Source: Prorocentrum cordatum (taxonomy: Eukaryota > Sar > Dinophyceae > Prorocentrales > Prorocentraceae). From it: a stretch of DNA of 64,000 nucleotides. Under the pieces are notes generated by a model. It was not told the origin of the DNA, searched no databases, and was given only the letters and a program-made list of their open reading frames with translations. The stretch covers positions 91,051-155,050 of the forward strand of contig CAUYUJ010020535.1 in NCBI GenBank assembly GCA_963575745.1, in the 5' to 3' direction. The translations under genes and the position numbers were made by a program. Below are positions 4,413-41,103 of this stretch, piece by piece; positions within the stretch are counted from its first letter, which is position 1, and each line of letters opens with the position of its first letter.

Positions 4413-4438
4413 GAGTTCCCGGCGGTAACCAAGGTTGA
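4402..4438 (+). repeat. Left half of R1 split by element A
   Basis: R1 reads normally up to GGCGGTAACCAAGGTTGA. The next base belongs to element A. Bases 4427-4438 (AACCAAGGTTGA) are the left target-site duplication. Confidence 0.8.
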
Positions 4439-4439
4439 G

Positions 4440-5621
4440 AAGGAGGATGTTCATGTTGAATCCGTGGAGAGTTCTACGGCAGTTGCTGCTGAAGAAGCGT
4501 CGCTTGCTTCTCAATCAAATGATGCTGTGCTGCATTCAGCTCCTTTGGATTATTCTCTGCACTCAGCTCCTTTGGATTATTCTCTGCACTCAGTTCCTTT
4601 GGATTATTCTCGAGTGCAAAGGGAAGGTGGAGGCCCCGAGGCGCTGCCGTTGGCATCCTCGAAAACCCACGGAGAGTGCGAAGTTGACCAGCGTAAAGAT
4701 AACTGTGCTTCTTCTTCCCGACTCTGTTCAGATGAGTTGCAGAGCAATCGATCTGAGTGTCAAGCTGCCAGGGACTGGGCCCGTGCCAATGACGATGCGG
4801 TTGCTCTTTGGCGGGAATTCGAACGGCTCCCGAAAGATGAGTTTCATGCTCGGATCGAGGCGCTCAAGGCATACAAACTTCGAATGGGAATTGAGAGTCC
4901 CGAGGAGGCGCCGAGTCCAGAGGAGGATGCTGGCCGTGGGAAAGGCCAGAGGCACCGCAGAAACAGGAGGCGGGCAAGGGCGAAGGCTCAGGCAGTTCTA
5001 ACTGGCTCTTCTATGTCAAAGTCGGCCCATCCATCTACTTGCGATCCTCCCCAACCTCCGTCCTCTTTTGCGGACTTGTGCAGTTCTTCAAATCACGTCG
5101 AGTGCGCCGGCACGGCTACCACATGGGTGCTCCAGAGGCACATCGCGCGCCTGCTCGTGGCGGACCACCTGCAGAAGGATGACGCTGATTGGGATGCGGT
5201 CTTCCACGCGTGGGATAAAATGGCCACCCTGCGAGAGAGGGCAAATTTCTATTTGAAGCAGGCTTCTCTGCACCGTCTGTGTGAGGCTTACCACCGTGAT
5301 GGGGAGGAGGACGCGGACATCCAGAGACTCTGGGAGCAGTGTCGGTTGGACAAGATAAGGATGCACCGTATTGCGGGGTGGTGCTTCGGACATTGGCGGT
5401 GCTTGACATTCTACTCAAGTGGTGCTCAACGGTTGATGGAACAACGCTTGCAGAGCCACATTAGGAACCTTCGTGTAACCTTTTGGCCTCCTCATCATAA
5501 AGATTCTATGGCTTCACACCCTGGGAGTTCCACGACTGGGAGTTTATCTAATGCAGTTGTGAGGTCAGCAGTGACGGAGGACGAGGAGAAACGTAACCAC
5601 GCATATTATTTGCTTCAGTAG
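4440..5621 (+). CDS. Element A ORF, uncharacterised basic protein, 5' truncated
   Basis: Open frame of ~393 codons from the element's first bases to TAG at 5619-5621. I do not recognise the family. Visible parts in order: three tandem copies of a 9-residue repeat (HSAPLDYSL-like, about 4533-4610); a domain containing SECQAARDWA, a WRE-x-x-RLP motif and AYKLRMGIES (about 4750-4900), shared with element B; a strongly basic stretch (RHRRNRRRARAKA, about 4950-4990) that could bind nucleic acid; then an acidic/aromatic region rich in Trp, His and Leu. There is no in-frame Met near the 5' end. The frame continues past the TAG for another 114 codons, so the stop looks like a nonsense mutation (CAG TAG GCG context) or a recoding site. 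Nucleic-acid-binding ORF1 function is inference. Confidence 0.6.
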   Translation, partial: KEDVHVESVESSTAVAAEEASLASQSNDAVLHSAPLDYSLHSAPLDYSLHSVPLDYSRVQREGGGPEALPLASSKTHGECEVDQRKDNCASSSRLCSDELQSNRSECQAARDWARANDDAVALWREFERLPKDEFHARIEALKAYKLRMGIESPEEAPSPEEDAGRGKGQRHRRNRRRARAKAQAVLTGSSMSKSAHPSTCDPPQPPSSFADLCSSSNHVECAGTATTWVLQRHIARLLVADHLQKDDADWDAVFHAWDKMATLRERANFYLKQASLHRLCEAYHRDGEEDADIQRLWEQCRLDKIRMHRIAGWCFGHWRCLTFYSSGAQRLMEQRLQSHIRNLRVTFWPPHHKDSMASHPGSSTTGSLSNAVVRSAVTEDEEKRNHAYYLLQ

Positions 5622-5963
5622 GCGTGTAATTTAAGGATCAGGAAATACTGCTTCCGCAAGTCTGGCTGGGTAAAGCTCGTTCACTCTTTCACGGCTGCCA
5701 CGCTGTATCGCCTTATGGCCTCGGGTGCCGAGGAAAAGGCTGTGTTGCTTGAAGCGCTTCTTCGGGATCGCGCGAGACTTGGCCCGATAGCCAATTTGAC
5801 CCATCTGTCGACGGATATCAGAGACTTTAGTCACCACAGACTCGTTCCCAAAAGCGTTACGGAAGCTATGACATACGTGACAAATTTTCAGGATGAATGG
5901 ATGCGTCGCAATGTAAAGAACTACCGCGAGTTGGCGGCCAAGGCGGGATACCCAATTGATTGA
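5622..5963 (+). CDS. Element A ORF, in-frame continuation after TAG
   Basis: Same frame as the upstream ORF with no frameshift, 114 codons, ending at TGA 5961-5963. The residues look protein-like: a basic start (LRIRKYCFRKSGW), a Leu/Ala/Glu-rich helix-like stretch (EEKAVLLEALLRDRARLG) and an amphipathic end (NVKNYRELAAKAGYPID). Continuity of frame and composition suggests one ancestral ORF of at least ~507 codons. From the remainder of the element (5964-6480) I see only 3' UTR-like sequence ending in A-rich DNA. Confidence 0.5.
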   Translation, partial: ACNLRIRKYCFRKSGWVKLVHSFTAATLYRLMASGAEEKAVLLEALLRDRARLGPIANLTHLSTDIRDFSHHRLVPKSVTEAMTYVTNFQDEWMRRNVKNYRELAAKAGYPID

Positions 5964-6480
5964 TTGATTTAGTGATTGCACATAGGCTGACATGGTTGGC
6001 CAGAACCAGAAATTGTTTCGTTGTATTCCATACTTCCCTTATTGAACATGCGAGCAAAACAAAACTAGACGGCCTCCGTGGATTCTTCGACGGAGGTCGC
6101 TCTGTGGAGGGATGTGCTGCAGAATGGTGTTTAGGTTTGTGTGTACACGGGGCGTGGCTGTTCGTGGCGGAGGAAGCTTTCTCGCTTGATGCCTCTGCTT
6201 CTGTCGTGTTCTGTGTGATGTTTGCAGCGCAACGGCTCTGTATGGCCGTGGTGCACGTTTTGGGTAGCCACTTTCATCTCTAACCTGTTCCTACACCTTT
6301 GCAATTTCACATGTCGTGCTGCATCCTTTTCCTTGTTCCTGCATCCTATTCCGATGCCTATGCCTCAGTGGCTCGGCAGTGTGATGATAAGAGATGCCTT
6401 CTCTAGCTACCCTGTGCTCCGTTCGGGAGTCTTAGGGCTCAGCTGTCACAGCTGTCCGCGCCCTGACTCAAACTCAAAAA

Positions 6481-6515
6481 AACCAAGGTTGACGGCTTGC
6501 CGCCGGCTCCCAGTT
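6481..6515 (+). repeat. Right half of R1 split by element A
   Basis: Starts with the second TSD copy AACCAAGGTTGA, then the right stem arm and 'ctcccagtt'. With the left half it reconstitutes one normal R1 module. Confidence 0.8.
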
Positions 6516-6784
6516 GGTCGACCCGACCAGAAAAGAAGATGTGGTAACTTGGGCTTTGTTTTGCTAAGATTTGAGAGATATTTAACAGTTAATTTTGAGA
6601 TATCAGATGTTTCGCATTTGTAAAAGACTATGAGGGTCTCTGCGTCTCAGTGTGAGCTCTGTAGGCGCACTTTTACTGTCAAAACACTTGGAGGAACCAA
6701 CTTCGTGTCGAGATGAAAAACTATTTTTTTGACTTGTTCGAGAAATGCTTCCACAAGCTCTCTGCTTCTTTTCCGAGCGTGCGA

Positions 6785-6842
6785 GGAGCTCTACGAGGTC
6801 CCCGGCGGTAGCCAGGTTGACGGTTTACCGCCGGCGCCAGTT
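6785..6842 (+). repeat. R1 hairpin module
   Basis: Left arm GGCGGTAG against right arm TTTACCGCC, one mismatch at the loop edge. It is followed by 'ggccatcccggcccgggcgga', the R2-type tail. Confidence 0.7.
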
Positions 6843-7122
6843 GGCCATCCCGGCCCGGGCGGACAATGTGGTGACTTTGGGTTGGTTTGGCTAAGATTCG
6901 ACAGATATTTGCCCATTCATTTTGAGACCAGATTTTTCCCGCACCTCTGATAGACTATGAGGGCCTCTGCGTCTTAATATGAGCTCCGTAGGCGCACTTT
7001 TACTACCAAAACACTTAGAGGAACCAACTTCATGTCGACATGAAAAATGCAAAATTGAAGATTTCACGAAAATCTTCTGCGAAGTTCTCCGCTTCAGCTC
7101 TGAGCACTCTGACGCGCGCAAG

Positions 7123-7179
7123 GAGCTCTTCGAGGTTCCCGGCGGTGACCAGGTTGACGGTTCACCGCCGGCGTCAGTT
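7123..7179 (+). repeat. R1 hairpin module, TGA/TCA type
   Basis: Perfect GGCGGTGA/TCACCGCC stem. It is followed by 'ggtcgacccgaccagaac' and, 20 bp later, an R2 start (CGTAGAGCTC). Confidence 0.75.
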
Positions 7180-7542
7180 GGTCGACCCGACCAGAACGGA
7201 CAATCGTAGAGCTCTTTGGCATCGGTGAGCTAGAGGAATTTCGGCGCGGTGTGGAGCTAGTTGGCCAACCCAGCCCTGGCGGAGAATGTGGTAACTTTGG
7301 GTCGGTTTTGCTCAGATTGGAAAGATATTTGACCATTCATTTTGAGAAACCAGATTTTTCGCACCCGTGAAAGACTATGAGGGCCTCTGCGTCTTTATAT
7401 GAGCTCCGTAGGCGCACTTTCACTATCAAAACACTCGGAGGAACCAACTTCATGTCGACATGAAGGATGCAAAATTGAAGATTTCACGAAAATCTTCTGC
7501 GAAGTTCTCTGCTTCAATTCTGAGCACTCTTACGCGCGCAAA

Positions 7543-7576
7543 GAGCTCTACGAGGTTCCCGGCGGTGACCAGGTTG
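7543..7576 (+). repeat. Left half of R1 split by element B
   Basis: R1 reads to GGCGGTGACCAGGTTG and then element B begins. Bases 7567-7576 (GACCAGGTTG) are the left TSD. Confidence 0.8.
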
Positions 7577-7910
7577 CTGCTGTCCCTCCTCGGGGATCTC
7601 AGCGGCGACCTGGCCCGTCGGGGCCTCCTCAAGCTGCATCGTGCAGCTGCGGGTGTTTTGTTCTGCCTACGCAACTGCCCATCTCCCTGTGCATCTTGCT
7701 TGGCATTGTTGGCCTCTCATATTTATTTCTTGTTGCGGTTTGGTGGTGGCAAACTGCATTGTACCTTCGCCTCGCGTGGAGATAACGATTTTGCATAGAG
7801 TGATATTGTATTGCCATTCCTCTCACACGTTTGATCGCCTCGAGTGGTCTTCAATACATTTGCTTTCGTGCGGTTCTGCCACCCGCAGCTGTTTCTGGTC
7901 CTTTTTCGCT

Positions 7911-8561
7911 ATGCCGCATGTGCGGAGGGCAGGTGCTCGCATTATGCGTCGGGCGCTGGCCATTCAGAACGGTTACTGTGTGCAACGACCTATTCGCTTG
8001 CCTCTGGAAGCTTTGGTGCCACCTACGTGTCTCCCACCCCCAGGGATGGAACGGGCGACTGCCGAAGTGGTTTTAGATTATTTCGTGCCGCGTGATTCAC
8101 CTATTGCCAAAACCAGTGTGCGAAGATGGACTTGCCAGTGAAAAGTAGCTTCGGTATTGATCGATCCTGTTTCCTCGTCTACAGCCGATCGTGCTTCTGC
8201 TGACTATTATCAGACAGCTACGCTGTGTAGAAAAGCAACTTGTGGAACACAGACTGATATGGATGCTGTAGAATTAGCTGGCAACTCTTTGTGTTCGCAT
8301 TGTTCCGATTGTGGGGCTCAGACAGATCCCTGTCTTCACATTGCGTGTGGGACTCAGACTGATCTTTGTGTTCTCTTTGTTGGTGAGGCGGAGACGGAGG
8401 AGTGTCATCGAGTGCGCCTTGATCGGGGTGATGCTTTTCTCAGAATGAAGAGATTGTTTCAAACGAGTGGAGGCTATCGAGAGTTCAAAGTTGCGCACTT
8501 CAGAATTGCATGCGACCAACGGGAGTGCGGTGGAGAGTACCGCAGTTTGGAGTTCAGCTGA
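7911..8561 (+). pseudogene. Element B ORF, N-terminal part, interrupted by TGA
   Basis: Frame opens with ATG at 7911 (MPHVRRAGARIMRRA), runs to TGA 8139-8141 and then continues in the same frame (KVASVLIDPVSS) to 8561. The second half has three copies of a CGTQTD/CGAQTD motif about 20-30 residues apart, with other Cys residues, suggesting a small Cys-containing repeat domain. I recognise no family. The frame that carries the conserved SECQAARDWA domain lies in another phase and overlaps the end of this ORF (8467-8561), so a 1-nt indel has probably shifted the frame. Decay is the simplest explanation; programmed recoding cannot be excluded. Confidence 0.45.
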
Positions 8562-9021
8562 TGCAGTTGGGAGTTCCAGTGCAGTCGGGAGTTCAACAGT
8601 TCGGAGTGCAGTAGGAAGTTCCAAAGTTCGGAGTTCCGCTGATGCAGTTGTTGATGCAGTTGGGAGTTCAACAGCTGGGAGTTCTGCAGTTGGGAGTACC
8701 GCGGTTTGGATTTCAGCTGATGCAGTAGGGAGTTCCATGACTGAGAGTTCTGCAGATCGACCAAGTGAGACGCGCTCTGAGTGTCAAGCTGCGAGGGACT
8801 GGGCCCTTGCCTGTGTCGATGTAAGTGCTCCTTGGCGTGAGCTGCAACGGCTTCCGAGACAGGAGTTTCAGCGTAGGCTTGAGGCTGTTAATGCATACAA
8901 ACTTCCAATGGGAATTGAAAGTTCCGGGGGGGATGATTCGCAACAGGGGGGTCCTCAGAGTCATACTTCCAGGGGTGCATTGACGCGGAGCGGCAAGAAG
9001 CATCGGAAACGGCACAGATGA
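8467..9021 (+). CDS. Element B ORF, C-terminal part with domain shared with A
   Basis: 184 codons. Residues ~20-95 are a low-complexity Ser/Ala/Val/Gly repeat (variants of SSAVGSST) encoded by a minisatellite at about 8540-8745. Residues ~103-152 carry SECQAARDWA, WRELQRLP and AYKLPMGIES, clearly paralogous to element A. The protein ends with a basic tail (SGKKHRKRHR), matching in kind the basic segment of A. The conserved block in two insertions at equivalent sites indicates a real protein family of this element type. The ATG used here is not necessarily the true start, because the upstream frame is shifted. Confidence 0.55.
   Translation: MEAIESSKLRTSELHATNGSAVESTAVWSSADAVGSSSAVGSSTVRSAVGSSKVRSSADAVVDAVGSSTAGSSAVGSTAVWISADAVGSSMTESSADRPSETRSECQAARDWALACVDVSAPWRELQRLPRQEFQRRLEAVNAYKLPMGIESSGGDDSQQGGPQSHTSRGALTRSGKKHRKRHR
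8540..8745 (+). repeat. In-frame minisatellite (gttgggagttc-type) in element B
   Basis: Repeats of 'gcagttgggagttc' and variants with irregular 15-39-bp spacing. They encode the Ser/Ala/Val/Gly stretch. Confidence 0.6.
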
Positions 9022-9738
9022 TGCACATGTGATTGATCATGCGCGCTTGTTTTGGTCTGCCCCCCCTCTCTCTCCTCCGCTGTTTCTGCCCCTGGGCTCG
9101 CTTTGGCTCTTTGGGCTTCTCCCGCGCTCCCGCTGGCTTTCCTTCCGCTCTCCGCTGACAGGTCTCATAAGAGGATGTGGCACGTTTCTTCTCTTACATT
9201 TATGACGGAGTGCCGCGGGCGTGCATCGCGTTATGCGCATCGCATCCCGTAAAACAAATTGTTTTCTGCCCATGGGACGTGTGCAGATTTATGCTTATTT
9301 TGGCACGAAAATTGCACAGGGCATTTTCGCCCGTTTATAGTGTGTTTTACAATAGATTCGTCGCGCCGGAACTGTGGCCAGCGCCGAATTCCGTCATAAT
9401 TCATTCTGCCTACAATTACTCGAAGGATTTGTGTATCACAATTTTTCTCAGTGGTGCTGAGACGGTAATCGCTGTATAAACCAGTGGTTACTGTATGGTC
9501 TCTCACTGCTTCTAGCTTTGCTTCCATATCTATGGTCTGCATTGCTTCCCTCACTATATTGTTGGTTGTTTTTTCGTGTGCTGGCAGTCTTGTGCATATC
9601 TGTACATCTTCGCTGTTTGATGCATCTCTGCTTTAATATTTGCAGCTTCGCTGTTTTCCTGTACAGCTTCGCTGTTTAGGTTCACTGTGTCCTGGCCTGC
9701 TCTCCAGGGAGCTCGAATCGGCCAACGCAGACTACGCA

Positions 9739-9770
9739 GACCAGGTTGACGGTTCACCGCCGGCGCCAGT
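9739..9770 (+). repeat. Right half of R1 split by element B
   Basis: TSD copy GACCAGGTTG, then right arm TTCACCGCCGG and GCGCCAGT. An R2 copy (ACCTCGTAGAGC) follows at once. Confidence 0.8.
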
Positions 9771-9905
9771 ACCTCGTAGAGCTTTTCGGTATCGATGAGC
9801 TAGAGGAATTCCGGCGAGGGGTGGAGCTAGTACCTCGTAGAGCTCTTCGGCATCGATGAGCTAGAGGAATCCTGGCGCGGGATGCAGCTAGTTGGCCCAC
9901 CCGGC
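9771..9905 (+). repeat. R2 elements, two tandem copies
   Basis: Two head-to-tail ~62-bp copies starting CCTCGTAGAGC, each containing 'catcgatgagct' or 'tatcgatgagct' and 'agaggaat'. The second ends 'gatgcagctagttggcccac'. Confidence 0.65.
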
Positions 9906-10172
9906 CCGGGCGGACAATGTGACCACTTGGGGTCGGTTTTGCTAAGTTTGGAAAGATATGTGACAATTCATTTCGAGAAACCAGATCTTTGCACCTGTGA
10001 AAGACTATGAGGGCCTCTGCGTCTTAGTATGAGCTCCGTAGGGGCACCTTTACTTTAAAAGCACTTGGCGCAACCAACTTCATGTCGACATGAAACCTGC
10101 AAAATTGAAGATTTCAAGAAAATCTTCTGCGAAGTTCTCTGCTCCGATTCTGAGCACTCTTACGCGCGCAAC

Positions 10173-10229
10173 AAGCTCTACGAGGTTCCTGGCGGTGAGC
10201 AGGTTGACGGCTCACCGCCGGCGCCAGTT
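10173..10229 (+). repeat. R1 hairpin module with extended stem
   Basis: Left arm GGCGGTGAG and right arm CTCACCGCC pair over 9 bp. This copy has changed both the base after TGA (C to G) and its partner (T to C) relative to its neighbours. Confidence 0.7.
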
Positions 10230-10444
10230 GACCATTCATTTTGAGAAACCAGATTTTTTACATCCAGTATTAGTGTTTAAATTTTATTCTGAGAGAGAAT
10301 CAGTTCTCTAGAGAGAGTTTTACTATCGCAACATTTGGAGGAACCAACATCAGGTTGACACCGAAAAAGGCAAATTTGACGTTTTTTTTAGAAATGCTCC
10401 GAGAAGCTGTCTGCTTCTTCTCCGAGCACTCTCGAGCGTGCGAG

Positions 10445-10467
10445 GAGCTCTACGAGGTCCCCGGCGG
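10445..10467 (+). repeat. Left part of R1 split by RT1
   Basis: R1 is intact up to CCCCGGCGG. The next base (10468) is the first base of the RT1 element. Confidence 0.75.
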
Positions 10468-13400
10468 ATACTGCATGATGTACGCCGCCTGCATCGACAG
10501 GCTCAGGCCAACCATGGCCACCACTTTCGCTTGTTGCTTGCCTGTGATGCCAATGTGGAGCTCACGCCAGAGTTGGAGGTGGATGGGAGGAGGGTGACGG
10601 GACCAGGACTCAGAAGATCGAGGGAGAGGGGACTTGGTCGGAACGGTGCCATTGATTTGGAGGACAGGAGGGCCAAGGAGGTGTGCATGAGGGACCAGAT
10701 TGAGGAGTTCTTGGAGGAGGAGGAGCTGGCTGCGATCAACACTTTTGAAGCACGGGTGCCGACCTACTGGCACTTCGGTGAGAGTGAGCCCACAAAGGTC
10801 TTAGATTACATCTTGGCGCCCAGGCAGTGGACAGTAGAAGATATCTCGTACAGTTGGTTGCAGGACGGGCGTGTGGCACGTTTGAGCGATCATGCAGTGA
10901 TCAAAACCCTGTTGGCCCCAAGGGAACCCCAGGAGATGTACCGACACAAGGTTGTTCGGCCACACGTCACGGCACGCCGGGCATTCGAGTCCCACAGAGA
11001 GGAGTTCTGTTTCAGAGCGTTGGTGGACATTGGTATTGAGGCCACACGCCCTGACGAGATCGCGAAGTCGTTGCATCAGCATGCGTTGCCTCTGCTCAAT
11101 CCGCCTTCCTCTGCGCATCGTGCACATGCTAAGTCTAAAAAGCTAGCAGATCTTCAGCATCAGTATCGTGGAGCCCGTGGGAATCCTGATGAGAGAAAGC
11201 GCCTGAGGGAACTTATGAGGCCCCTGGTCAATGCAGATAGGCGTAGTGAGATCGAGTATACCTTCGCGAACCCTCGCAAAAGCAAGAAAGTGAATGTCAA
11301 GTCTCTGAAGATCGACGGGGAGGTGACGGAGGATCGTAAGAGGTGGGTGGAGGAGGGGATGAAGCAGCACAGCTTGAACACGATGACGAGCGAAGAGGAG
11401 AGGATGAGGAACAGCGAGCTGGTATCTGACTTACGGCGACGTGCACGAGCAGCTAGGGCACACAGCAGCAGCAGTACGATGCACGACATGCACATGCAGC
11501 TCACGATGGGGGTGGTGAACGAAGCACGTGCACGATTGAGATCTGGCAAGAGCTGCGGCCCAGATGGGGTCAGCGTGGAGCTCTTGAAGGCTTTGGCGTG
11601 GCGATCTGTTCGCCAGATTTTCCATGTGTTTCGAGATATCTTTGATGGTGATCGTCGGTCACCTGACTGCTGGAGAGAGGTACTCATCACGCTGATGCCC
11701 AAGCTGGTGAATCTAGATTCGCTCACACAAACACGCAATACAGTTGTACAGAACACGTTAGGAAAATGGTACCTCACCTGTGTTACTATCCTTATCGAGA
11801 GGTATGCTGAACAGTACATGGGGCGATTGGGCTTGTATGGTTTCGCACAGGATCGGAGGACGTGGGAAGTAGCGGGACCCCTTAAGGCCATCTCACAGCA
11901 TGCGAGCGTCTGGGGGAAAGATAGGAAAGCGTTCTTCTGTTCATGTGATATAGCACGAGCCTTCGACCATGTTAAGCTCACTACCTTGGCACGCGCGATG
12001 CACATGCTTAACATACCTGTACAGCTACAATATGCTCTGATCGAGCCCTTAACTGACACGACGGGCACGCTCACGTTCGAGGGCTTGGAGTTAGGTGGGG
12101 TACGATGGGATCGATCTCTCAGAACGGGGGGTACCGAGTCTCCCCTGTGCTTTAATTTGGTTGTGTTGGCCATGTGGGCGGAGGTCATACAGAGGTGGGA
12201 TAACGAACGTATAGGTGTGGAGATCCCGTACAGCAACATGCACGACATGACGCGCGCACATGTTTACAATCATGCGATTTGGGCAGATAACATATATCTC
12301 GTGGCCAGTACATCGGCTCAGATGCAGCTGATGATCGACGCACTTACTCACGCTTTACGTACATGGGGACTAGAGTGGAAGTCAGATTCACTTGAATCGA
12401 TGGTGGTGGGCGACCGCGATACCACTACTTTCTTCGCTGATATCCAGGGGGTGCAGGTCCCATTCAAGTCAGTCTCTCAGCTGAATGTGTTGGGAACGGT
12501 CGTCTCGCAGCAGTATGGGGGCACGCATGAGGACATGCAATTTCGGATTGACTGTGCACGACGCGCGTTTTATGGGCAAGCTAAGTATTATCGTTGTCGT
12601 GCTCTCCCTCTTCGTAAGCGGTATCGACGGTATCAGAGCCTGGTACAGAGTGTATTAGCATACGGACTGGATACATGTACGCTGGACCCTGAAGGTGTTC
12701 GATTGCTTCATACCTTTGAGGGCAGATGCCTGCTGGCCATGCATTGTCGACGGAAGCCTGCGGGACAGAGATGGGAGGTCTGGAAGCCACATATGCTTGA
12801 CACAGCGAGGGCTTCTTTCTGCTCGCTGGGATTTCCTAGCATCGTCCAGATCGTGGCGTGGAAGAGTTGGAGCGTCGCGCATTCGGTCAGCACGGCTTAT
12901 GGCAATTTTGATTTCACAAATCCTGGGCCTCCCCGGTGGAGAGGCCCAGGTTCAGGAGTAAGTTGTGAGGATGGGGTCTCGAGCGGTTCCCAGCACAATG
13001 ATGGCGCTGGCGGCCGACGTGTTGCACGCAAGGTTGAGCCACATCCTGATACCACGAGACGTGCATTTGTTGATTCTCGCACGGCATTGCTTTGTACACA
13101 CAAGACCTGGGAAGCGCACCGCATGGCTCTCACTGAGTGTCTCCGCTGTCATGGAGATCGTAGGCGTGCCTCTGAAGGCAAACGGCTGCGTGCTGGAGGG
13201 GATAGTGTTGGGCAGCGGTCTTGGCAGTACCCGTACATACAGATTCATGGGGATGAGTGGTGGGAGACCTTCCGACCAGGATATGACACATTTCTGCAGA
13301 CATGGGAAGCACTTTTACGCACGTATGGTAGGCCTAAGATATTCGAGTACTTCTGCACGAATTGGAAACAGGTACCAGGAGGAGTTGTTGGGAGAGAATG

Positions 13401-14103
13401 TAAGGAGGGAACAGGAAGGAACGAGGAGGCGACGGAGGAGGAGAACATGAAACAAGCAAGACGGTTGGCGATTATCAATGAACGGGAAGCTGTATTTGAT
13501 ATCATGTCGAACGGAGTTGGAATTGAGATCAAGGGAGACTCTTTGTTGGTCCAGAGCTGGCTTACGGGACGTTGGCGTTGTCATAATCGTGCATATCGTG
13601 AGCGTGTACACAGGTGTGTCAACGACATGTACGCACTTAGCTTTTCACACCGAGCACGGGCATCGAACGTTGGGCGAGACATATTTGTACATGAATTTCG
13701 TGAAGCAAACACCCGAGCAGACGAACTTACTCATTTGGCCAGAGATGGCCACACATTTCATCATAACTATTGCCATCGATATCCCTTCGAACGTGACTCT
13801 TTGAAGGTAGTCGCCTGTCGTGGAGGGTACGACGGGGGAGTGTGCAGCAAGGGCAGTGCATGCGGTTACTGGATGCAGGTTGGCTATCTCAACATGTCTT
13901 CGCGGGCGTCTCGGCATGGAGTGTATTCTACACGATACTCCCCCTACCCGACCTCTTCCTCTCTACATTATCATGCTGACACACCGTTGATCGTGGAGCC
14001 AGGCGCCACGATCACCGAATGTGAGTTGTCCGCTGCCGAAGCATTGACACGTGCCATACGCATACAGCTTCAGCAATTTGATGACAGTGATTTTGCTTCT
14101 TGA
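10468..14103 (+). CDS. Endonuclease (partial)-reverse transcriptase-RNase H-like polyprotein
   Basis: About 1211 codons, open from the 5' junction to TGA. Residues here are numbered from an upstream in-frame ATG at 10438, ten codons earlier. The C-terminal half of an APE-like endonuclease is visible: LLACDANVEL (~33-42), PTYWHFGESEPTKVLDYIL (~108-126) and LSDH (149-152). The RT follows: GKSCGPDGVSVELLK (~370-384), motif A FFCSCDIARAFDHVK (Asp504, Asp510), motif B RTGGTESPLCFN (~562) and motif C HAIWADNIYL (Asp617-Asn618 instead of Asp-Asp). A C-terminal RNase H-like region has GDS (Asp1034) and HEFREANTRADELTHLA (Asp1095), then YDGG (Asp1132) and TECELSAAEAL (~1193), the reverse of the usual motif order. 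Expected activity is target-primed reverse transcription; the missing EN N-terminus should make this copy non-autonomous. Its presence in the R1 loop suggests the family has a sequence-specific endonuclease. Confidence 0.85.
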   Translation: MLHDVRRLHRQAQANHGHHFRLLLACDANVELTPELEVDGRRVTGPGLRRSRERGLGRNGAIDLEDRRAKEVCMRDQIEEFLEEEELAAINTFEARVPTYWHFGESEPTKVLDYILAPRQWTVEDISYSWLQDGRVARLSDHAVIKTLLAPREPQEMYRHKVVRPHVTARRAFESHREEFCFRALVDIGIEATRPDEIAKSLHQHALPLLNPPSSAHRAHAKSKKLADLQHQYRGARGNPDERKRLRELMRPLVNADRRSEIEYTFANPRKSKKVNVKSLKIDGEVTEDRKRWVEEGMKQHSLNTMTSEEERMRNSELVSDLRRRARAARAHSSSSTMHDMHMQLTMGVVNEARARLRSGKSCGPDGVSVELLKALAWRSVRQIFHVFRDIFDGDRRSPDCWREVLITLMPKLVNLDSLTQTRNTVVQNTLGKWYLTCVTILIERYAEQYMGRLGLYGFAQDRRTWEVAGPLKAISQHASVWGKDRKAFFCSCDIARAFDHVKLTTLARAMHMLNIPVQLQYALIEPLTDTTGTLTFEGLELGGVRWDRSLRTGGTESPLCFNLVVLAMWAEVIQRWDNERIGVEIPYSNMHDMTRAHVYNHAIWADNIYLVASTSAQMQLMIDALTHALRTWGLEWKSDSLESMVVGDRDTTTFFADIQGVQVPFKSVSQLNVLGTVVSQQYGGTHEDMQFRIDCARRAFYGQAKYYRCRALPLRKRYRRYQSLVQSVLAYGLDTCTLDPEGVRLLHTFEGRCLLAMHCRRKPAGQRWEVWKPHMLDTARASFCSLGFPSIVQIVAWKSWSVAHSVSTAYGNFDFTNPGPPRWRGPGSGVSCEDGVSSGSQHNDGAGGRRVARKVEPHPDTTRRAFVDSRTALLCTHKTWEAHRMALTECLRCHGDRRRASEGKRLRAGGDSVGQRSWQYPYIQIHGDEWWETFRPGYDTFLQTWEALLRTYGRPKIFEYFCTNWKQVPGGVVGRECKEGTGRNEEATEEENMKQARRLAIINEREAVFDIMSNGVGIEIKGDSLLVQSWLTGRWRCHNRAYRERVHRCVNDMYALSFSHRARASNVGRDIFVHEFREANTRADELTHLARDGHTFHHNYCHRYPFERDSLKVVACRGGYDGGVCSKGSACGYWMQVGYLNMSSRASRHGVYSTRYSPYPTSSSLHYHADTPLIVEPGATITECELSAAEALTRAIRIQLQQFDDSDFAS

Positions 14104-15599: not shown

Positions 15600-16337
15600 G
15601 ATTCGGTGTCTTGAGAGCTCCACGACGGTCCTGCGGTAACCTGGTTGAGACCGGCTCCCAGTCAGAAGCGCCAGTCTGGAGTGTCCAGATGTCCAAATTC
15701 GCTCTGCTACCAGACCTCGGTCAAAAGAAGTATTCGTACATTATTCATTTTTCAGAGATGATGATCATTTTCTCGAAGTAAATCGACGGGCTGCAGAGCT
15801 GTTTGGCGCAGCACACGAGAAATAATGAGCAAAAGGGCCAGTCTCAAGTATTTGGATGTCCGAACTCGCTCTGCTACCATAGCTGGGTCCGAAGAACTAT
15901 TTGTACTCCGCTATATTGGGCTGTTTGGCACCGCAATCATAAGAAAAGTACCCGGGTCGCTGTTCTAAAGTAATGAGATGCCCCAGCTCGGTCTCCTACT
16001 ACAGCAAAGCCGAAACTATGAGAAACAAGAAAAGTACGAGCTCTTCGGCATCGATGAGCTGAAGGAATTCCAGCGCGGGGTGCAGCTAGTTAGTCCACTC
16101 GCCCCAGGTGTGGGACTTTCGGTCGGTTGGGCGGAGATTGTGCGAGATTTGGAAATTTGTTTGGAAACCTTTTTCTCCGCACCTTTAGCTGGATATGCCC
16201 CGTCTGCCTGGGGGATTCTCAGGTCTCTAGCTGCCGTATTACTATCAAATCACTTGGCGGAACCGACTTTCGATAAAAACGGAAAAAAACATGTGTTTTC
16301 GAGTTTTTCAGGTGTCGAGCAGCTCGGTGCGAGAAAA
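15600..16337 (+). repeat. Degenerate R1/S178/R4 mixture
   Basis: Contains a decayed R1 (~15618-15661), two diverged S178 monomers (15665-15960), an R2 piece (16040-16095) and an R4-like body (16130-16330). No gene seen. Confidence 0.45.
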
Positions 16338-17430: not shown

Positions 17431-17754
17431 AGCAAAAATTAGCATGGGACTAGCGCGTCTGATGATTATCTTGGATCGATGTGCTACAGAGCTATGTAGC
17501 TCATCTGCAGCTCGAGTTCTTTCAAGAAACTTACCATCATCTCTCTATAAACTAGCAGAGTACGCATAGTTTTCCGACCCAGCGTTTACCGCCGGCTCCC
17601 AGTATTGCAGCTACGGACCAGATGATTCGACAGGGAGACGCGGCATAACCCACTACGCGTGAGGAAATACTTGTTTTCAAAACGAACGGTCGAATCTCTC
17701 ACAGTCTGCAGAAAACCGACGCCAGGTCATCACATTGTCTGTCGGGCCGGGTGG

Positions 17755-28182: not shown

Positions 28183-28238
28183 GAGCTCTGCGAGGTTCCC
28201 GGCGGAGACCAGGTTGACGGTTCACCGCCGGTGCCAGT
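28183..28238 (+). repeat. R1 hairpin module, left arm mutated
   Basis: GGCGGAGA against TTCACCGCC. It ends GTGCCAGT and enters a leader. Confidence 0.65.
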
Positions 28239-31090: not shown

Positions 31091-31096
31091 CTGTCA

Positions 31097-32869: not shown

Positions 32870-33675
32870 TCAGGATGACTCGAACAATGCGAATAGTTTC
32901 GCAGACCTAGTTTGGGCAGCAGGCCGAGTTCCGAGCTCTAGATTCGAAAGGCGAACGCGCCTGATGTCTTCGAATCGATTGCAATGATCACCAGCCATGC
33001 AGCCCCCTAGAGCCCGAGTTAAGTGCAGAGAACCGACAGCATCTCTCAAGATGAGTCGACCAATACGAATAGTTTCGCGATTCTAGATCGGACAGCAGAC
33101 CGAGTCCAGAGCTCTGGGTTCAACAGACAGCGACCACTGGTGATTCTGACCCAGATTCTGTACGTATGAGCTCTGCTGTCCTACAGCTCGAGTTAAGTAC
33201 AGAAAACCGAGAGTTCCTGTCAAGATGACTCGAATAATACAAATAACTTTGCGGACCTGGCTCGGGCAGCAGACTGAGTTCAGATCTCGAAGTTCAACGG
33301 GCGAACGCGCCCGATCATTCTGAATCGATTAGCTGTGCTTACCAGCTCTGTAGCTGTCCTGAAGCTCGAGTTATCTTGAGAAAACCGACAGCGCGTATCA
33401 AAATGACTCAAAACGGCCGATCCCGCCGCGATGCTTTTCGCAGAAATATTTACCCGATCGAGCTGAGATCAAGATGGCGAGCGGGAATAAGATCGAATAT
33501 GGTCAGAAAAAATTCTAGAGCTCTAACGAATTGTTCAATTTCGAGAAGAAAATTTTCAACTGACCAAAAGTCAGCAAAACAGTCCGTCGAGATTTTTCTT
33601 GCCAACTAGCTCTCCAGCGCCCCGGAATTACTCTTAGCTTCCAGCCATAACTTGCTGAGGGCAGCTCTACGAGTT
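32870..33675 (-). repeat. Inverted satellite-plus-leader block
   Basis: Three S178 monomers (32870-33430) followed by a leader (33430-33675) in reverse orientation to everything around them. The reverse leader ends 'gcagctctacgagtta', a decayed unit end. Confidence 0.65.
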
Positions 33676-34080
33676 ATTCCCGGAGAGCTCGCTGAGAGCT
33701 TAAGGGTTTAAGATTAGAAGCCGGACTGTGGTGGTGCTCGCCAGGAGCTCCTTTCCGTCGCCGCACAGGCCTCGGAGCGACTTCCCTGAGCCAGCAACGG
33801 GACCGGGGAAGCTTCCGGCAATCTTCCACGCGTGCCTGCAAGCGTGCAGGCACGCGTGGAAGCGATTCTGGCAGCGCTTCGGCAGCGCTGCAGGGGAGCT
33901 GCCCGCAGCCCTCGGGGACAGATTTCCCGTCTCCAAGGGTCCCTGCGCTCGCCGGGTTTTGGGCGCTACGAAGTTTCCCGTCCCGGAGGTTGTCTTTGCT
34001 CTCCGGTTGTTGGACGCTACCAAGTCTCCGGGGCGCTGGAGAGCGCCCATCCGGCCAGAAAGGACAAAAAGTAACAACTT
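33670..34080 (-). repeat. R7 GC-rich repeat, inverted copy
   Basis: Shares 'ttaagattagaagcc', 'gtggtggtgc' and 'cttccggcaa' with 31437-31735. Open frames on both strands reflect GC content only. Confidence 0.55.
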
Positions 34081-34349
34081 TTTGCTGGTTTTGTGTAGAG
34101 CTTCACTTGGCAAGTTATTGAGGGAAGCTTAAGAATAATTCCGGCGCTCGAGAGCTAGTTGACAAGAAACATCTCGACGGATTTTTTGCTGACTGTTGGT
34201 CGGTTGAAAATTTTGTTATCGAAATTCAACTATTCGCTAGAGCTCTAGTATTTTTTTCCCGTGATGTTCGATATTATTCTGCTCGCCATATTGATCTCAG
34301 CTCGATCGGGTACTTTTTACTGCCAGAGAGCAAGCGGACAGGATCGGCC

Positions 34350-35160
34350 GTTTCGGGTCATCTTGTCACGCGGTGACGGTTTTCTCAAGATAACTCGAGC
34401 TTTAGGACAGCTTTAGAGCTGTTAAGCACAGCTGATCGATTCAGAATGATCAGGCGCGTTCGCTTGTTGAATCCAGAGGTCTCAAATCGGTCTGGTAGTC
34501 GAGCTAGGTCCGCAAACCTATTCGTATTATTCAAATCATCTTGACAGACGCTCTCGATTTTTTGTACTTAACTCGAGCTACAGGACAGCTACAGAGCTGA
34601 TGCGTACAGAATCTGATTGCGAATCATAGATTACTGTTCTCTGCTGAATTGAGAGCTCTGAACTCGGTCTACTGCCCGATCTAGAATCGCGAAACTATTC
34701 GTATTGTTCGAGTCATCTTGAGAGATGCTGTCGGTTCTCTGCACTTAACTCGGGCTGTAGGGGGCTGCATGGCTGGCGATCACTGGAATCGATTCGGAGA
34801 CATCAGGCGCGTTTGCCTTTCGAATCCAGAGCTCTGAACCCTGTCTCCATTTGTTCTGTTCGAGTCAGCCTGAGAGATGCTGTCGGTTCCTTCCACTCGA
34901 CTCGGGCGACGCGTCCGCCTGTCGCATGCAGAGGTCTGAACTCGGTCTGATACTCGAGCTAGGTTTGCCAAACTATTCGTTGCTCGAGTCATCTTGAGAG
35001 GTGCTGTTGATTTACGCACGTAACATGGGCTGTCTGAGAGCTACGAGCTCGTACAGAAGACAATCCAGAAGCATCGGGGCGTTCGGCTGTTGCATCCGAG
35101 AGGTCTGAAATTGCTTGGGCTGAACAACTATTTTTTCTATGTTTTTTCTTCCGACATACA
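34350..35160 (+). repeat. S178 satellite array, about five monomers
   Basis: Preceded by a leader at 34085-34350; one monomer is shortened near 34850-34915. Confidence 0.7.
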
Positions 35161-35169
35161 ATGTTGTCA

Positions 35170-35230
35170 GGAAGCTATACGAGCTCTTCGGCAGTAACAA
35201 AGGTTCACGGTTTACCGCCGGCGCCCAGTT
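35170..35230 (+). repeat. R1 hairpin module, degenerate left arm
   Basis: CGGCAGTAA against TTTACCGCCGG. An inverted R1 (35331-35374) lies 100 bp downstream. Confidence 0.6.
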
Positions 35231-35330
35231 TGGGTGGTTTTGCGAGTATTTGAAAGATATTCGACCATTCATTTTGAGAAAGCAGATTTTTAGCACCTGT
35301 GGACGACTATGAGGGCCTCTGCGTCTCAAC

Positions 35331-35374
35331 GGTAAACCGTCAACCAAGTTACCGCCGGGCACCTCGTAGAGCTC
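35331..35374 (-). repeat. R1 hairpin module, inverted partial copy
   Basis: Reads 'ggtaaaccgtcaaccaagtt', 'accgccgggcacctcgtaga' and 'gctc' on the plus strand. The inverted body continues to about 35715 and ends with an inverted R2. Confidence 0.6.
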
Positions 35375-35863
35375 TCTTCTTACACAGCGCTCCTCCGAAC
35401 ACGTGAAGGAAGCTTCTGAAGCCAGAGCCGAAAAAATCGAAAAATAACGATTTTTCGGTTTTCATACAGTGGGTTCCTCCAAGTGTTTTGATGGTAATGC
35501 TGGACCTTGAGCCATAAACAATTTACGAGCAGGTGCGCTATAGCTTACAACAGGGAATAAAAATCTCACTTCTAAAAACAAACTTCAAAATTTTGCATAA
35601 AGTGAAAAACACCGACCCCAGGTTACCACATTCTCTCTTTTCGTCGGGCCGGCCAACTAGCTCCACCCTGCGCCCGAATTCCTCTTAGCTCTTTGCCGAA
35701 GAGCTCTACGAGGTATATGAGCTCTCTAGTTGCACTTTTACTTACTATCAAAACACTTGGCGCAACCAACTTTATGTCGACATGAAAAAATCATGCTTTC
35801 TTTTTTGGAGAAATGCTTCGAGAAGCCCTCTCTTTTGATGCTGAGCACTCTTACGCGTGCGAG

Positions 35864-35920
35864 GAGCTCTACGAGGTTCCCGGCGGTGACCAGGTTGACG
35901 GTTCACCGCCGGCGCCAGTT
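35864..35920 (+). repeat. R1 hairpin module, TGA/TCA type
   Basis: Perfect GGCGGTGA/TCACCGCC stem, preceded by an R4 tail. It enters a leader at 'ccggggcgctggagagct'. Confidence 0.7.
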
Positions 35921-36119
35921 CCGGGGCGCTGGAGAGCTAGTTGGCAAGAAAAATCTCGACGGACCTTTTGCTGATTTTTGGTCGGTTGAAAATTTTGTTC
36001 TCGAAATTCAACCATTCGTTAGAGCTCTAGTATTTTTCCCGTGATATTCGATCTTATTCCCACTCGCCATCTTGATCTCAGCTCGATCGGGTACCTTTTA
36101 CTGCCAAAAAGCGTCCAGG

Positions 36120-37020
36120 CGGGATCGGCCGTTTCGAGTCATCTTGATACGCAGTGACGGTTGTTTCAAGATAACTCGAGCTTGAGGACAGCTACAGAGC
36201 TGGTAAGCACAGCTAATCGATTCAGAATGATCAGGCGCGTTCGCCACTTGAACCCAGAGGTCTGAACTCGGTCTGCTAGCCGAGCTAGGTCCGCAAACCT
36301 ATTCGTATTATTCGAGTCATCTTGACAGACCCTCTCGGTTTTCTGTACTTAACTCGAGCTACAGGACAGCTACAGAGCTGATACGTATATAATCTGATTC
36401 AGAATGATCAGTGGCCGTTCTCTGCTGATTTCAGAGCTCTGAACTCGGTCTGCTGCCCGATCTAGAATCGCGAAACTATTCGTATTGTTCGAGTCATCTT
36501 GAGAGAGTCGGTTCTCTGCACTTAACTCGGGCTGGGGGGGGGGGGGGCTGCAGGCTGCTAATGACTGGAATCGATTCGGAGATATTAGGCGCGTCCGTCT
36601 TTCCAATCCAGAGCTCCGAACGCTGTCTGCTGCCCGAACTAGGTCTGCAAACTATTCGTATTGTTCGAGTCATCCTGAGAGGTGCTGTCGGTTTCCTGCA
36701 CTTAAGTCGGGCTGTAGGGGGGGGCTGCAGGACTGGTAATCACAGGGATCGATTCGGAGACATCAGACGCGTCCGCCTGTCGCATGCAGAGGTCTGAACT
36801 CGGTCTGATACTCGAGCTAGGTTTGCCAAACTATTCGTATTGCTCGAGTCATCTTGAGAGGTGCTGTCGATTCACGCACGTAACTCGGGCTGTAGGAGAG
36901 CCACAGAGCTCGTACAGAAGACAATTCAAAAGGATCGGGGGCGTCCGGCTGTTGCATCCGAGAGCTCTGAAATTGCTTTGGCTTAAAAATTATTTTGTCT
37001 GTGTCTTTTCTTTTCGACAT
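36120..37020 (+). repeat. S178 satellite array, five monomers
   Basis: Contains a G13 run at about 36533-36546 in the position where other monomers carry 'gtaggggggctgcag'. Confidence 0.75.
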
Positions 37021-37032
37021 TATATGTTGTCA

Positions 37033-37093
37033 GGAAGCTCTACGAGTCCCCCGGCGGTAACAAAGGTTGACGGTTTACCGCCGGCGCCCAGTT
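37033..37093 (+). repeat. R1 hairpin module joined to mid-leader
   Basis: Perfect TAA/TTA stem. It is followed by 'gacaagaaaaatctcgacgg', which lies ~60 bp into the leader. Confidence 0.75.
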
Positions 37094-37284
37094 GACAAGA
37101 AAAATCTCGACGGACCTTTTGCTGACTTTTGGTCGGTTGTAAATTTTGTTCTTAAACTCAACCATTCGTTAGATCTGTAGAATTTTTTCTGACCATATTC
37201 GATCTTATGCCCGCTCGCCTTCTTAATCTCAGCTCGATCGGGTAAATATTTCTGCAAAAAAACATCGCGTTGGCATCGGCTCTT

Positions 37285-38160
37285 TCGAGTCATCTTGATA
37301 CGCGTTGTCGGTATTTTGTACTTAACTCGAGCTGTAGGGCAGCTACAGAGCTCATTCTCACAGGAATCGATTGCGAATCATCAGGCGCGTTCGTCTGTTC
37401 CATCTAGAGGTCTGAACTCGGTCTGCTGCCCGAGCTAGGTTCGCGAAACTATTCGTGTTGTTGGAGTCATCTTGAGAGGTGCTGACAGTTTTCTGCACTT
37501 AACTCGGGATGTAGGGGGGCTACAGGGCTCGTACTCACAGGAATCGATTCAGAGACATCAGACGCGTCCGCCTGCCAAATGCAGAGCTCGGAACTCGGTC
37601 TGCTGCCCGATCTAGAATCGCGAAACTATTCGTATTTGTCGAGTCATCTTGAGAGGTGCTGTCCGTTTTCTGCACTTAACTCGGGCTGTAAGGGGGCTGA
37701 AGGGCTGGTAGTCACTGGAATCGATTCGGAGACATCAGTCGCGTCCACCTGTCGCATTCGGAGCCCTGAACTCGGCCTGCTGCCCGAGCTAGGTCCGCGA
37801 AACTATTCGTAATATTCGAGTCATCTTCAATTGTGCTGACGATTTTCCACTGAACTCGGGCTGTAAGGGGGCTGCAGGGCTGGTAATCACAGGAATCGAT
37901 TCGGAGACATCAGACGCGTCCGCCTGTTGCATTCAGATGTCTGAACTCGGTCTTATACTCGAGCTAGATTCGCGAAACTATTTGTATTGTTCGAGTGATC
38001 TTGAGAGGTGCTGTCGATTTTCGCACAACTCGGGCTGTAGGAGAGCTACAGAGCTCGTGCACACAGAAAACGATCCAGAAGCATGAGGGGCGTTTGGCCG
38101 TTGCATCGAGAGGTCTGAAATCGTTTAGGCTAAAAAGCTATTCGTTCTCTGCAATTTTTC
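37285..38160 (+). repeat. S178 satellite array, five monomers
   Basis: 'gagtcat' or 'gagtgat' occurs at 37641, 37818 and 37993, giving periods of 177 and 175 bp. This is the last satellite array in the window. Confidence 0.8.
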
Positions 38161-38177
38161 GACATTATATATGCTCA

Positions 38178-38212
38178 GGAAGCTCTACGAGTCCCCCGGC
38201 GGTAAGGAAGGT
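38178..38212 (+). repeat. Left part of R1 split by RT2
   Basis: R1 reads to CCCCCGGCGGTAAGGAAGGT, then RT2 coding sequence starts. No matching right half is found downstream. Confidence 0.75.
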
Positions 38213-41103
38213 GAGGAAATCGGCGAGGTCCCCACCAAAGCAGACCTTACCCCGAAAGTTTCTGAGAAGTATGTTGCCGCTCGGGAGGCCGCACTTGAGA
38301 TGAAGAGGAAGAGAAATAAGGGTGAATGCACGGAGGAGGAGTTCAAGAAGGCGAGGAGGAGGTACAGATATGAGAGGAGGAAGCATGGGAGGAATATCTT
38401 GGAGTATGAGTTCCGTCCAGGTCTACAGCATCGAACATACCATAAGACGCTCAAAGTCGAGGGAGTGCTCACTTGGGACAAGTCTAAGTGGGAGAAGGCC
38501 CTCAGAGCGCACGGTCTGGCCATGTATACTGATGAACATGAGCGTGCACGCACAAACAGTAAGCTGGAGGAGATGAGGAAGAGGTTGCAGGAGGCGAATA
38601 TGCAGGAGTACCAGCCTATCGATATCGGCCTGCTCATGCGTGCTAGGTCTCGTCTTCGTTCAGGAAAGGCCGTAGGTGAGGACAACATCAGCGTCTCCAT
38701 GCTTAAGCACATCCCTTGGTCAGGTTGTCTTCAAGTCTTGCGGTGCTTTCAGCAGCTGTTTATGCGCGAGTATTGCACGCCCACAGCATGGCGCCATATA
38801 TGTATACAGCTGATGCCGAATTCTGTGAAGACTTGCGAATTCAATGACACACGAGCTTTATCATTATTTTCTTGCCTGTCAAAATGGTATATGTCATGTC
38901 TCACCTTGTTGGCCGTGGACCATCTCAAACGGAGTGTTGCCCCCGAGGTGATGCTCTTCGGGTTTGTTGCTGGAAGACGGACACACGAGATTACTGGTGG
39001 TTTGAAGAGAGTTGCTCAGCACGCGACGGAATGGGGGAAGTCATATTGTATGCACACGGCGAGCTTAGACGTGTATCGTGCTTTTGATAACGTACAGGTG
39101 GCAGACGTTGCTGACTGCCTGGAGGAGTTGAGGTTTCCACCTGAACTTAGTTTTGCGCTCATGGAGGGCCTAGCTGAGAACAGGGCCGATTTATCTTTCC
39201 AGCAGGTGGATGTCTCGGACATAGCTTGGGATAGTTGTATCCGCACAGGTAGTGTTGAGGCTCCGCTCTTTTGGTTGTGTGAGAGTGTGCTCATGTTCCG
39301 TTCTGTGGTCTTGAGTTGGCAGGAGCGGGGGATGGGAGTGCAGTTGACGCAGCAGGCAGGTACTCGTCATCTTACACATGCTATTTGGGCCGACAATGTT
39401 CTGTTGTGTGCCAGAGATCAGAGTGAGTTGACGACCATGATTGCGGAGATCAGTGTCCCACTTTATCACAGGAAGTACAGATGGAAACCGAGTAGCTTGC
39501 AGTTTATTCGCTTTGGCTACGATGAGCCTGGGACCGAGAGTTTGGATGTCTCTTTTGCGTTGCCGAATTCCCAGGATAAGCGTCAGAGAGTGACTATAAC
39601 GTTGCAGCAGACTGATCGTTTGGAAATACTTGGCACGATTCTTGAAAACAGCATGCGACAACATGAGGACTTAAATCATCGGATTTCTCTCGCACAAAAG
39701 GCGTTTTGGCAAGATAAGAAGTATTACATGTGCCAGGGTATTAAGTTGAAGAAAAGATTGCGGCGATACGACTCACGTGTAAGAAGCCGATTATTGTTTG
39801 CAGTGGAAGGGATGACAGCTGACAAAAATGCTATTGAATCGATTCATGCGTTCGAAGGCCGCTTACTTTCGAAGATGGTATGGAGACGGAAACGTGACAC
39901 TGAGAGTTGGCCACAGTTTTTCCAGAGCGTGTACTTGACGGGGCGGAAAGCACTCCGGACAGCTCAGATGCCGAGTGCGGTTCAGCTTTTTCTTTTCAAA
40001 CAGTGGAGTTGGGCAAAGGATGTGGCGACGACAACTGCTCGAAACGGGATCCGCAAAGTTGATGACGCCCAGCCTACAATTGATCCAATGGAAATGGGTG
40101 GTGCAGTGTCTCTTGATATGGATGGGATGTCTCAGAATGCGGGTGCTACTGTGCCGATTACCACGGATTTGATGTCTCAGAATGCGGGTGCGGTCGTACC
40201 GATTACCACGGGTTCGATGTCTTTGAATGCGGGTGCTGCTGTACCGATTACCAGAGATCTGAAACGACGGAGGGTGACTGTTATTGTGGCCCCTGTCATT
40301 ACTGCCCGAGGGGACCTCGCCGTTGCTCTGCCAGAGGGTCAGGAGAACAGCGCCACGAGTCAGAACCGACGACGGCTTATCTCTCAGGCGTCCCGTGCTG
40401 CTGCCAAAAGGAGCAGGAATGCTCCTACATCATCAACGCCATCATCATCATCAGCCCCTACACCAGCGCCAGCAGCCATGCGAAGAAGGTTTCGAAGTGA
40501 TATGGTGGGGGCGAGTGCGGGTGACCCTTTCTTGCAGGCCCGTTACACGATGATGCATGCCGCCAGCCCGTGGACTCAGCAGATGGATGCCGTTATTCGC
40601 ACATATAACTCGCAGGAAGCACGATCCTTTACACGTCGAAGGGAAGGTGGAAAAACGGTGGGACTTCGTCCGTGGGGCTTGCCATTTGAAACGGTGGGTG
40701 GAGATGCTTGGTATGATACTCTTGAGTGGACTCAGGCAGGGTGGAGATGTTTTATCCGTACTTTGCTTTCGGAATGGGACCTACAACATGTTTTAGAATA
40801 TGCTCACCTGCCTGAACCAAAACCCTGGAGGCCGAAAAACGACGAGGAGGAGGTGGAGGGGACGGAGGAGAGAAATAATGAGATTGCAAAGCGGCTTGCC
40901 TATAACTTCGAGAATGCCAGCGTCTGGAACTACGAGGCTGAAGGGATCCCCGTCGAGCTCTGTGGTGACTCCCAGGTGGTAGTGAACTGGCTGGTGGGAC
41001 AATATGTATGTACGACGGAAGTGTATTGTGAGACCATTGCACACATTCAAAGTATATTATACAGACTACACTTGAACTACCGCGTGAATCTGAGGCCGCC
41101 GTC
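38213..41103 (+). mobile_element. RT2: non-LTR retrotransposon in R1, truncated at both ends
   Basis: The 5' junction is in the R1 loop about 9 bp downstream of the nick position inferred for A, B and RT1, as expected for the second-strand cut. The 3' end is lost: similarity to RT1 stops inside the RNase H-like region near 41100, with no poly(A) and no right half of R1. A different sequence class starts there. Confidence 0.75.

Follow-up and report, generated by a model that had tools for sequence, protein, structure and literature searches.

We examined a window of 64,000 nucleotides from the dinoflagellate Prorocentrum cordatum (positions 91,051 to 155,050 of contig CAUYUJ010020535.1, GenBank assembly GCA_963575745.1), which sits at the end of a 155-kb contig within a 4.128-Gb assembly. 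Four elements in this window, A, B, RT1, and RT2, each adjoin halves of a short hairpin repeat that an earlier note on this DNA called R1. (The name is only that note's label, and the repeat has no relation to the R1 clade of long interspersed nuclear elements, or LINEs.) We argue that A, B, RT1, and RT2 are very probably LINE insertions, that is, insertions of retrotransposons without long terminal repeats (LTRs), of the type with an APE endonuclease, and that they were placed site-specifically by target-primed reverse transcription on the loop side of the left arm of R1. In the copies that we read, the tail joins R1 directly after GGCGGT, in one orientation; the 5' ends vary, and 5' truncation is seen.

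Within the window, most of what the earlier note described can be read exactly (Table 1). A, B, and RT1 share the 3' junction GGCGGT^R, their 5' ends lie at +12, +10, and -1, A and B are flanked by exact target duplications of 12 and 10 bp, and all four elements are in the + orientation relative to R1. Two claims stood only in part. All four copies are coding, as the note had it, but A and B have no reverse transcriptase (RT) in the window; their proteins have one short domain in common. And RT2 was said to interrupt R1: the left half and the +9 offset are indeed in the window, but the right half is found only in a duplicate of the locus.

Table 1. The four insertions, the R1 halves around them, and their target duplications (window positions; ORF, open reading frame; UTR, untranslated region)
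Feature	Start	End	Strand	Remarks
R1 left half 5' of A	4405	4426	+	ends GGCGGT
Target duplication of A, 5' copy	4427	4438	+	AACCAAGGTTGA; 12 bp, exact repeat at 6481-6492
Element A	4439	6480	+	ORF1-like coding, frame open to 5621; long 3' UTR
R1 right half 3' of A	6481	6514	+	
R1 left half 5' of B	7544	7566	+	
Target duplication of B	7567	7576	+	GACCAGGTTG; 10 bp, exact repeat at 9739-9748
Element B	7577	9738	+	open frames 7569-8141 and 8449-9021
R1 right half 3' of B	9739	9770	+	
R1 left half 5' of RT1	10446	10467	+	stops at GGCGG, 1 bp short
Element RT1	10468	14288	+	5'-truncated ORF2, stop at 14103; 3' UTR with hairpin; A-run
R1 right half 3' of RT1	14289	14319	+	
R1 left half 5' of RT2	38181	38203	+	
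Target duplication of RT2	38204	38212	+	AAGGAAGGT; +9, second copy only in duplicate locus L119
Element RT2	38213	41103	+	RT-coding, without APE, 5'-truncated; 3' side cut inside RNase H

The duplicate of RT2 lies about 76.5 kb upstream on the same contig (window 38100-41103 versus C19686:52560-55615; L, C, and P numbers are our labels for loci, contigs, and proteins). The two are 99.7% identical over 301 bp around the 5' junction and 99.5% identical over 1,755 bp of the element. The window copy lacks an R1 right half and diverges from its family at 41103/41104, but the duplicate keeps its 3' end (AAAAAAGGAAGGTTGACGG), with the same unusual R1 variant as at the 5' side. Because the duplicate ends at the common junction, RT2 follows the rule and the +9 reading stands. 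By this comparison, the 3' part of the window copy appears to have gone missing either where a duplication broke off or where the assembly was joined.

R1 has the approximate layout AGCTCTACGAGKYYCCCGGCGGT-RACC(A)-AGGTTGACGGTTYACCGCCGGCKCC(C)AGT, and by our reading, its arms are GGCGGTRA and TYACCGCC, with 8 bp of pairing between them. GGCGGTRACC, with at most one mismatch, occurs at 58 places in the window versus 5.5 expected, and one exact 21-bp version of the R1 core occurs 4,701 times in the assembly, versus 0 times for the reversed control. An edit-distance scan of the window gave 28 intact copies (26 on the + strand and 2 on the - strand), all within the first 38 kb, besides an additional copy at 28184 that the scan divided. 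It also gave weaker left-half matches, some of them at chance level (a shuffled sequence gave 9 left halves and 1 right half). Right halves without a left half stand at 404-431 and 17577-17603, and the R1 at 15616 is internally shortened; any of these might be insertion scars or truncated units.

Among 59 intact, element-free copies of R1, conservation falls from about 1.5 bits to 0.2 bits or less immediately past CAGT, and in 103 of 139 cases, the sequence that follows begins at varied positions inside a few common repeat units. R1 thus marks the constant 3' end of units that start at variable 5' points. These units stand head to tail (window 1-38180 and loci L001-L070), and they look as 5'-truncated retroposons would, with mobility itself being a candidate property only. 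We found no Rfam match anywhere in the window, nor a DinoSL site with up to 3 mismatches, and scans of viral contigs did not return R1.

Does R1 also flank other genomic copies of these elements? The earlier note had said that its reading would fail if most other copies had unrelated flanks; in the samples that we took from these larger families, all 54 of the tails that we read adjoin R1 sequence. For the RT1 family, the query was the tail without R1, so there was no selection for R1. We scored 40 of 95 candidates, with tails that are 97-100% identical, and R1 follows in 30 of the 30 that we read (25 complete right halves and 5 partial ones of 6-14 bases); these include the window copy, and 29 are distinct, with L053 and L057 sharing flanks. 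For the A family (40 scored of 720 candidates, 20 read, with L094 and L095 sharing flanks), all 20 tails run into R1, of which 14 are complete, 5 are partial, and 1 has AACC only. For the RT2 family (40 scored of 103 candidates), R1 follows all 4 of the 3' ends that we read.

The right half is shortened at 11 loci, and at 8 of these, an element related to the lineage lies directly behind it. We found the 5' ends of RT1-family elements at L046 and L086, an A-like element at L084, a B-like element at L079, and RT, APE, or ORF1-like coding at L047, L048, L058, and L083. Some of these matches are weak (E = 6e-4 at L047, 7e-15 at 26% identity at L058, and 2e-6 over 31 amino acids at L083), and the sequence behind the other three shortened halves (L055, L090, and L097) matched no identified element. 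At L048, the right half of R1 reappears behind the second element. Similarly, contig C2965 contains a P0001-type element, then CCAG, and then an RT1-family element. Together, these cases imply that one R1 can take insertions serially.

Genome-wide scans for the junction give a similar picture. The fusion of an A-run to the right half of one R1 variant (AAAAANCCARGGTTGACGG) occurs at 446 places, while the reversed pattern occurs at 1. With the junction placed at the mirror position in the other arm of R1, there were 3 matches, and with the site read in the opposite orientation, there were 0, for patterns that were stricter or covered fewer R1 variants than the main one. In a looser scan, the A-run stops directly after the GGT^R point at 40 of 43 distinct places among the matches listed, as counted by eye and with the sequence upstream of the A-run outside the view. 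(The total for that scan, 4,255, counts long A-runs repeatedly.) Where R1 has GGTGACC, the G is retained at the junction (AAAAAGACCAGG; AAAAAGACC), which places the break after GGT.

The 5' ends are more varied. Eleven of 30 junction loci start in the left half of R1, as do 7 of the 11 RT1-family loci whose 5' end could be seen, while 1 more starts just outside. At one extreme of the offsets, much of the left half is lost; at the other, the offset is about +12. For every one of the 19 insertions that we typed by eye, the two halves belong to one R1 subfamily (14 of the T/AAGG type and 5 of the G/NGG type; 11 had been preselected by their right side, and L040, L051, and L067 were not typeable). 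Intact R1s keep the same pairing of left and right in 84 of 85 copies. At L066, a private R1 variant, CAGGCT, is present on both sides of the insertion. The pairing and the private variant indicate that single copies of R1 were split.

The elements themselves have the hallmarks of LINEs: 5' truncation, an A-rich 3' end (except for B), target duplications of variable length, and no LTRs that we could see. The RT1 family is a two-ORF, APE-type LINE, represented in the window by the 5'-truncated RT1. On contig C2965, a family member that shares 99.7% identity with the window RT1 over 2,376 bp has an ORF1 of 374 amino acids followed directly by an ORF2 with APE and RT. ORF1 was seen in two copies, the second being L046 (contig C21239), and has no Pfam match. 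In the full-length copy L072, APE matches positions 2-225 of 225 of PF03372 (E = 5e-5); the window RT1 keeps only the C-terminal part of APE and has lost the N-terminal part, and the rest of its ORF2 holds the RT and an apparently permuted RNase H. RT1 matches RVT_1 with E = 1.9e-10, while RT2 scores 25 bits, below the cut-off of 29.6 bits, and the closest PDB match to a profile of the RT family is L1 ORF2p (E = 2e-10). Among 38 scored copies of the ORF2 protein, from 11,249 first-look candidates, a frame of 1,348 amino acids is open in 33 and an internal stop is present in none; these counts cover ORF2 only. Several of the tails fold into a hairpin, a short single strand, and the A-run, and the z-scores of the eight that were tested range from -3.0 to +1.1.

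The catalytic box of RTs is usually [YF]ADD (YADD). RT1 (11500-12660), RT2 (38207-41122), P0001, P0002, and P0003 have WADN instead, which we identify as the catalytic box by its position, with no alignment to a solved RT covering the motif. The WADN-bearing RT1 family has many open frames.

RNase H looks unusual as well. In the C-terminal domain, also in the RT2 family, the parts of RNase H are ordered GDS - N.RAD - [FY]DGG - T.T..EL; in the window, the region is at 13435-14100. The C-half appears to precede the N-half in L011, L012, L016, L017, L019, L021, L028, L030-L034, L036-L038, L119, P0001, and P0002. In eight aligned families, D, E, D, and D are invariant but in permuted order; in the wider set, the catalytic E was not seen in L012 or L019. 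Because the predicted structure was poor (a pLDDT of 42), we relied on swapping the order of the halves and not on a fold search. A half-swapped profile of eight sequences matches the RNase H 3u3g with E = 3.4e-6 and across the swap point, whereas the profile in natural order matches one half only, with E = 2.7e-4. Pfam gives a weak signal for RVT_3, in 3 of 8 swapped sequences (best E = 0.0023) versus 2 of 8 natural ones (best E = 0.027). So RNase H is apparently circularly permuted in at least eight families. In the part of the PMC literature that was available, from which subscription journals are largely absent, we found no account of a permuted RNase H in a retrotransposon.

How many families use this junction? 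The 30 junction loci form nine clusters by tail (of 9, 9, 3, 3, 2, 1, 1, 1, and 1 loci), and seven of the nine include loci that code for C-termini homologous to RT1. RT2 is the eighth RT-coding family at the junction, and the P0001-type would be the ninth, so at least eight RT-coding families share it. Elements without a visible RT occupy the same junction: in the A cluster and at L010, only ORF1-like coding is in view. Element A, whose tail is the hairpin CTGACTCAAACTC followed by an A-run, is probably 5'-truncated. RT-like coding is present in 2 of 20 slices taken about 2 kb upstream of A tails (L107 and L108), so A may have RT-coding relatives or neighbors. The B frame at 8449-9021 is 47% like A over 89 amino acids and 86% like an open frame of L010 over 182 amino acids, and the upstream part of that frame is 87% like the N-terminus of the RT protein P0002 over 102 amino acids. 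A search of 5.8 billion proteins, which scored only the roughly 8,000 candidates sharing the most words, returned P0001-P0003 as close relatives and P0004 and P0005 as distant ones. The P0001-type element is in the same genome (contig C2965). In viral contigs, 51 stretches matched a pattern, and none was confirmed as a relative of the RT.

Beyond the insertions, the repeat-rich part of the window turns into repeat-poor DNA at 41103/41104, which could be a duplication edge or an assembly join. Outside the repeat-rich region, 46 amino acids encoded at 63810-63947 are 50% identical to the C-terminal part of the RT protein P0002. At 54185-55247, there is about 1 kb of degenerate, telomere-like heptamers (CCCTAAG/CCCTAAA-like) with a strong strand asymmetry.

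A mechanism of target-primed reverse transcription can account for a 3' junction that is fixed and 5' junctions that vary, as well as for the A-run, the truncations, and the duplications. The endonuclease of ORF2 would nick the bottom strand at 5'-...GGTY^ACCGCC-3'. The freed 3' end, which is ..GGTT in many copies of R1, would prime on the A-run of the element's RNA, and a later cut of the top strand, a few to about 12 bp downstream, would yield the duplication. The same R1 could then be used again because the right half retains its side of the nick site. It is plausible that R1 is cut by the element's own APE.

We considered whether the R1 halves might be terminal sequences of the elements and not target DNA, a question that the earlier note had also raised. 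All of the tails that we read in the RT1, A, and RT2 families do carry some R1 bases. But near-identical tails adjoin R1 halves that differ (CCAAGG, CCAGG, CCTGG, or CAAAGG; TTC or TTT), thousands of R1 cores exist and the 59 intact copies that we read are free of elements, and the exact duplications differ in length. Also, the left and right subfamilies agree at each locus. In our samples, then, the halves behave as target, and with the variation by subfamily and the CAGGCT of L066 in hand, we rejected this explanation as next to impossible. It is also very improbable that a few insertions were multiplied as arrays of R1 were duplicated, so that the common junction was inherited and does not reflect the choice of target. 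Duplicates do exist (the RT2 locus, L053/L057, and L094/L095), but the loci differ in R1 variant, in the length of the A-run, in the point of 5' truncation, and in the sequence after CAGT, and nine tail clusters have the junction in common. So we rejected duplication as the main cause.

The R1 hairpin could instead form a cruciform that is nicked by a host nuclease or that exposes an end, from which a LINE would prime with no endonuclease specificity of its own. The break does lie within a palindromic arm, next to the loop, and the arms can pair. Still, we think this unlikely: a symmetric structure would not be expected to favor one strand and one arm, and the near absence of mirror and opposite-orientation matches, even if those patterns were narrower than the main one, disfavors a hotspot due to structure only.

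There are several points against site-specific insertion into R1 as we have described it. The case is one of sequence comparison. Eighteen of the 30 junction loci have no R1 left half within 1.5 kb, and at one other (L035), the upstream match is an intact R1. Of the remaining RT1-family 5' ends, L043 has an intact R1 upstream, L061 has no R1, and one is masked. The flank samples are the best-scored copies of each family only, and some loci go back to a single event by duplication (L053/L057, L094/L095, and the RT2 pair). The AAAAA patterns preselect A-tailed elements, the 3' end of B has no A-run, and the control patterns for the mirror arm and the opposite orientation were not as broad as the main pattern. 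At two of the shortened right halves, the remnant of R1 is only about 6 bases (L058) or about 4 bases (L083). Finally, the APE match in L072 is 1 bit below the Pfam gathering score, and no PDB chain matched APE.

With its thousands of copies, R1 may be a safe landing site for these LINE families. A broader scenario is tentative, and we would not bet on it: a clade of dinoflagellate LINEs, with a WADN RT and a naturally circularly permuted RNase H, might have specialized on the hairpin at the 3' end of another retroposon-like repeat that spreads independently. Each new copy of the repeat would be a landing site, insertions would occur serially, and elements without an RT would exploit the machinery. 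Such a self-expanding chain of target and parasite could have helped to build the 4-Gb genome. Apart from this scenario, R1 is a new, dispersed, and very abundant target that is common to many families of one lineage, and it suggests concretely how a giant genome could tolerate insertions in large numbers. The young, open copies at hand make the recognition of a structured repeat by APE testable, and an RT with WADN or an RNase H with permuted halves, as apparently present here, would be of interest as an unusual enzyme by itself. LINEs with sequence-specific targets serve in the study of target-primed reverse transcription and are leads for targeted gene addition.

In the part of the PMC literature available to us, with the same gap in subscription journals, we found no account of LINEs that target R1 in a dinoflagellate. 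The earlier note had stated that the known targets of such elements are RNA genes, telomeres, and microsatellites; this is incomplete, as transposons are also among the targets listed in PMC4640811.

Several known systems resemble the one described here. Like the LINEs of the R1 clade (R1Bm on 28S rDNA; TRAS and SART on telomere repeats), these elements are of the APE type, have a fixed 3' junction, and use a multicopy target, but their target is a dispersed hairpin module, where the R1 clade uses rDNA or telomere repeats. A LINE that targets a transposon is Tx1L of Xenopus laevis (Tx1 clade); it is of the APE type and inserts at a specific sequence within a different dispersed repeat, and in this respect it is similar to what we propose. 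It differs in its host, in the sequence of its target, and in its longer duplication; and unlike with Tx1L, many families here use one site, and the WADN motif and an apparently permuted RNase H are present. A and B, with ORF1-like coding and no visible RT, might be compared to HAL1, the ORF1-only half-L1 of mammals, although A, unlike HAL1, may also occur in a longer, RT-coding form (L107 and L108). Within the dinoflagellates, there is SymbioLINE-Dnmt of Symbiodinium, and the wording "target site" is absent from the text on it in the part of PMC5890265 that was available. Unlike the ORF1 here, which lacks a Pfam match, its ORF1 is a DNA methyltransferase, but it too is a two-ORF LINE of a dinoflagellate (PMC5890265).

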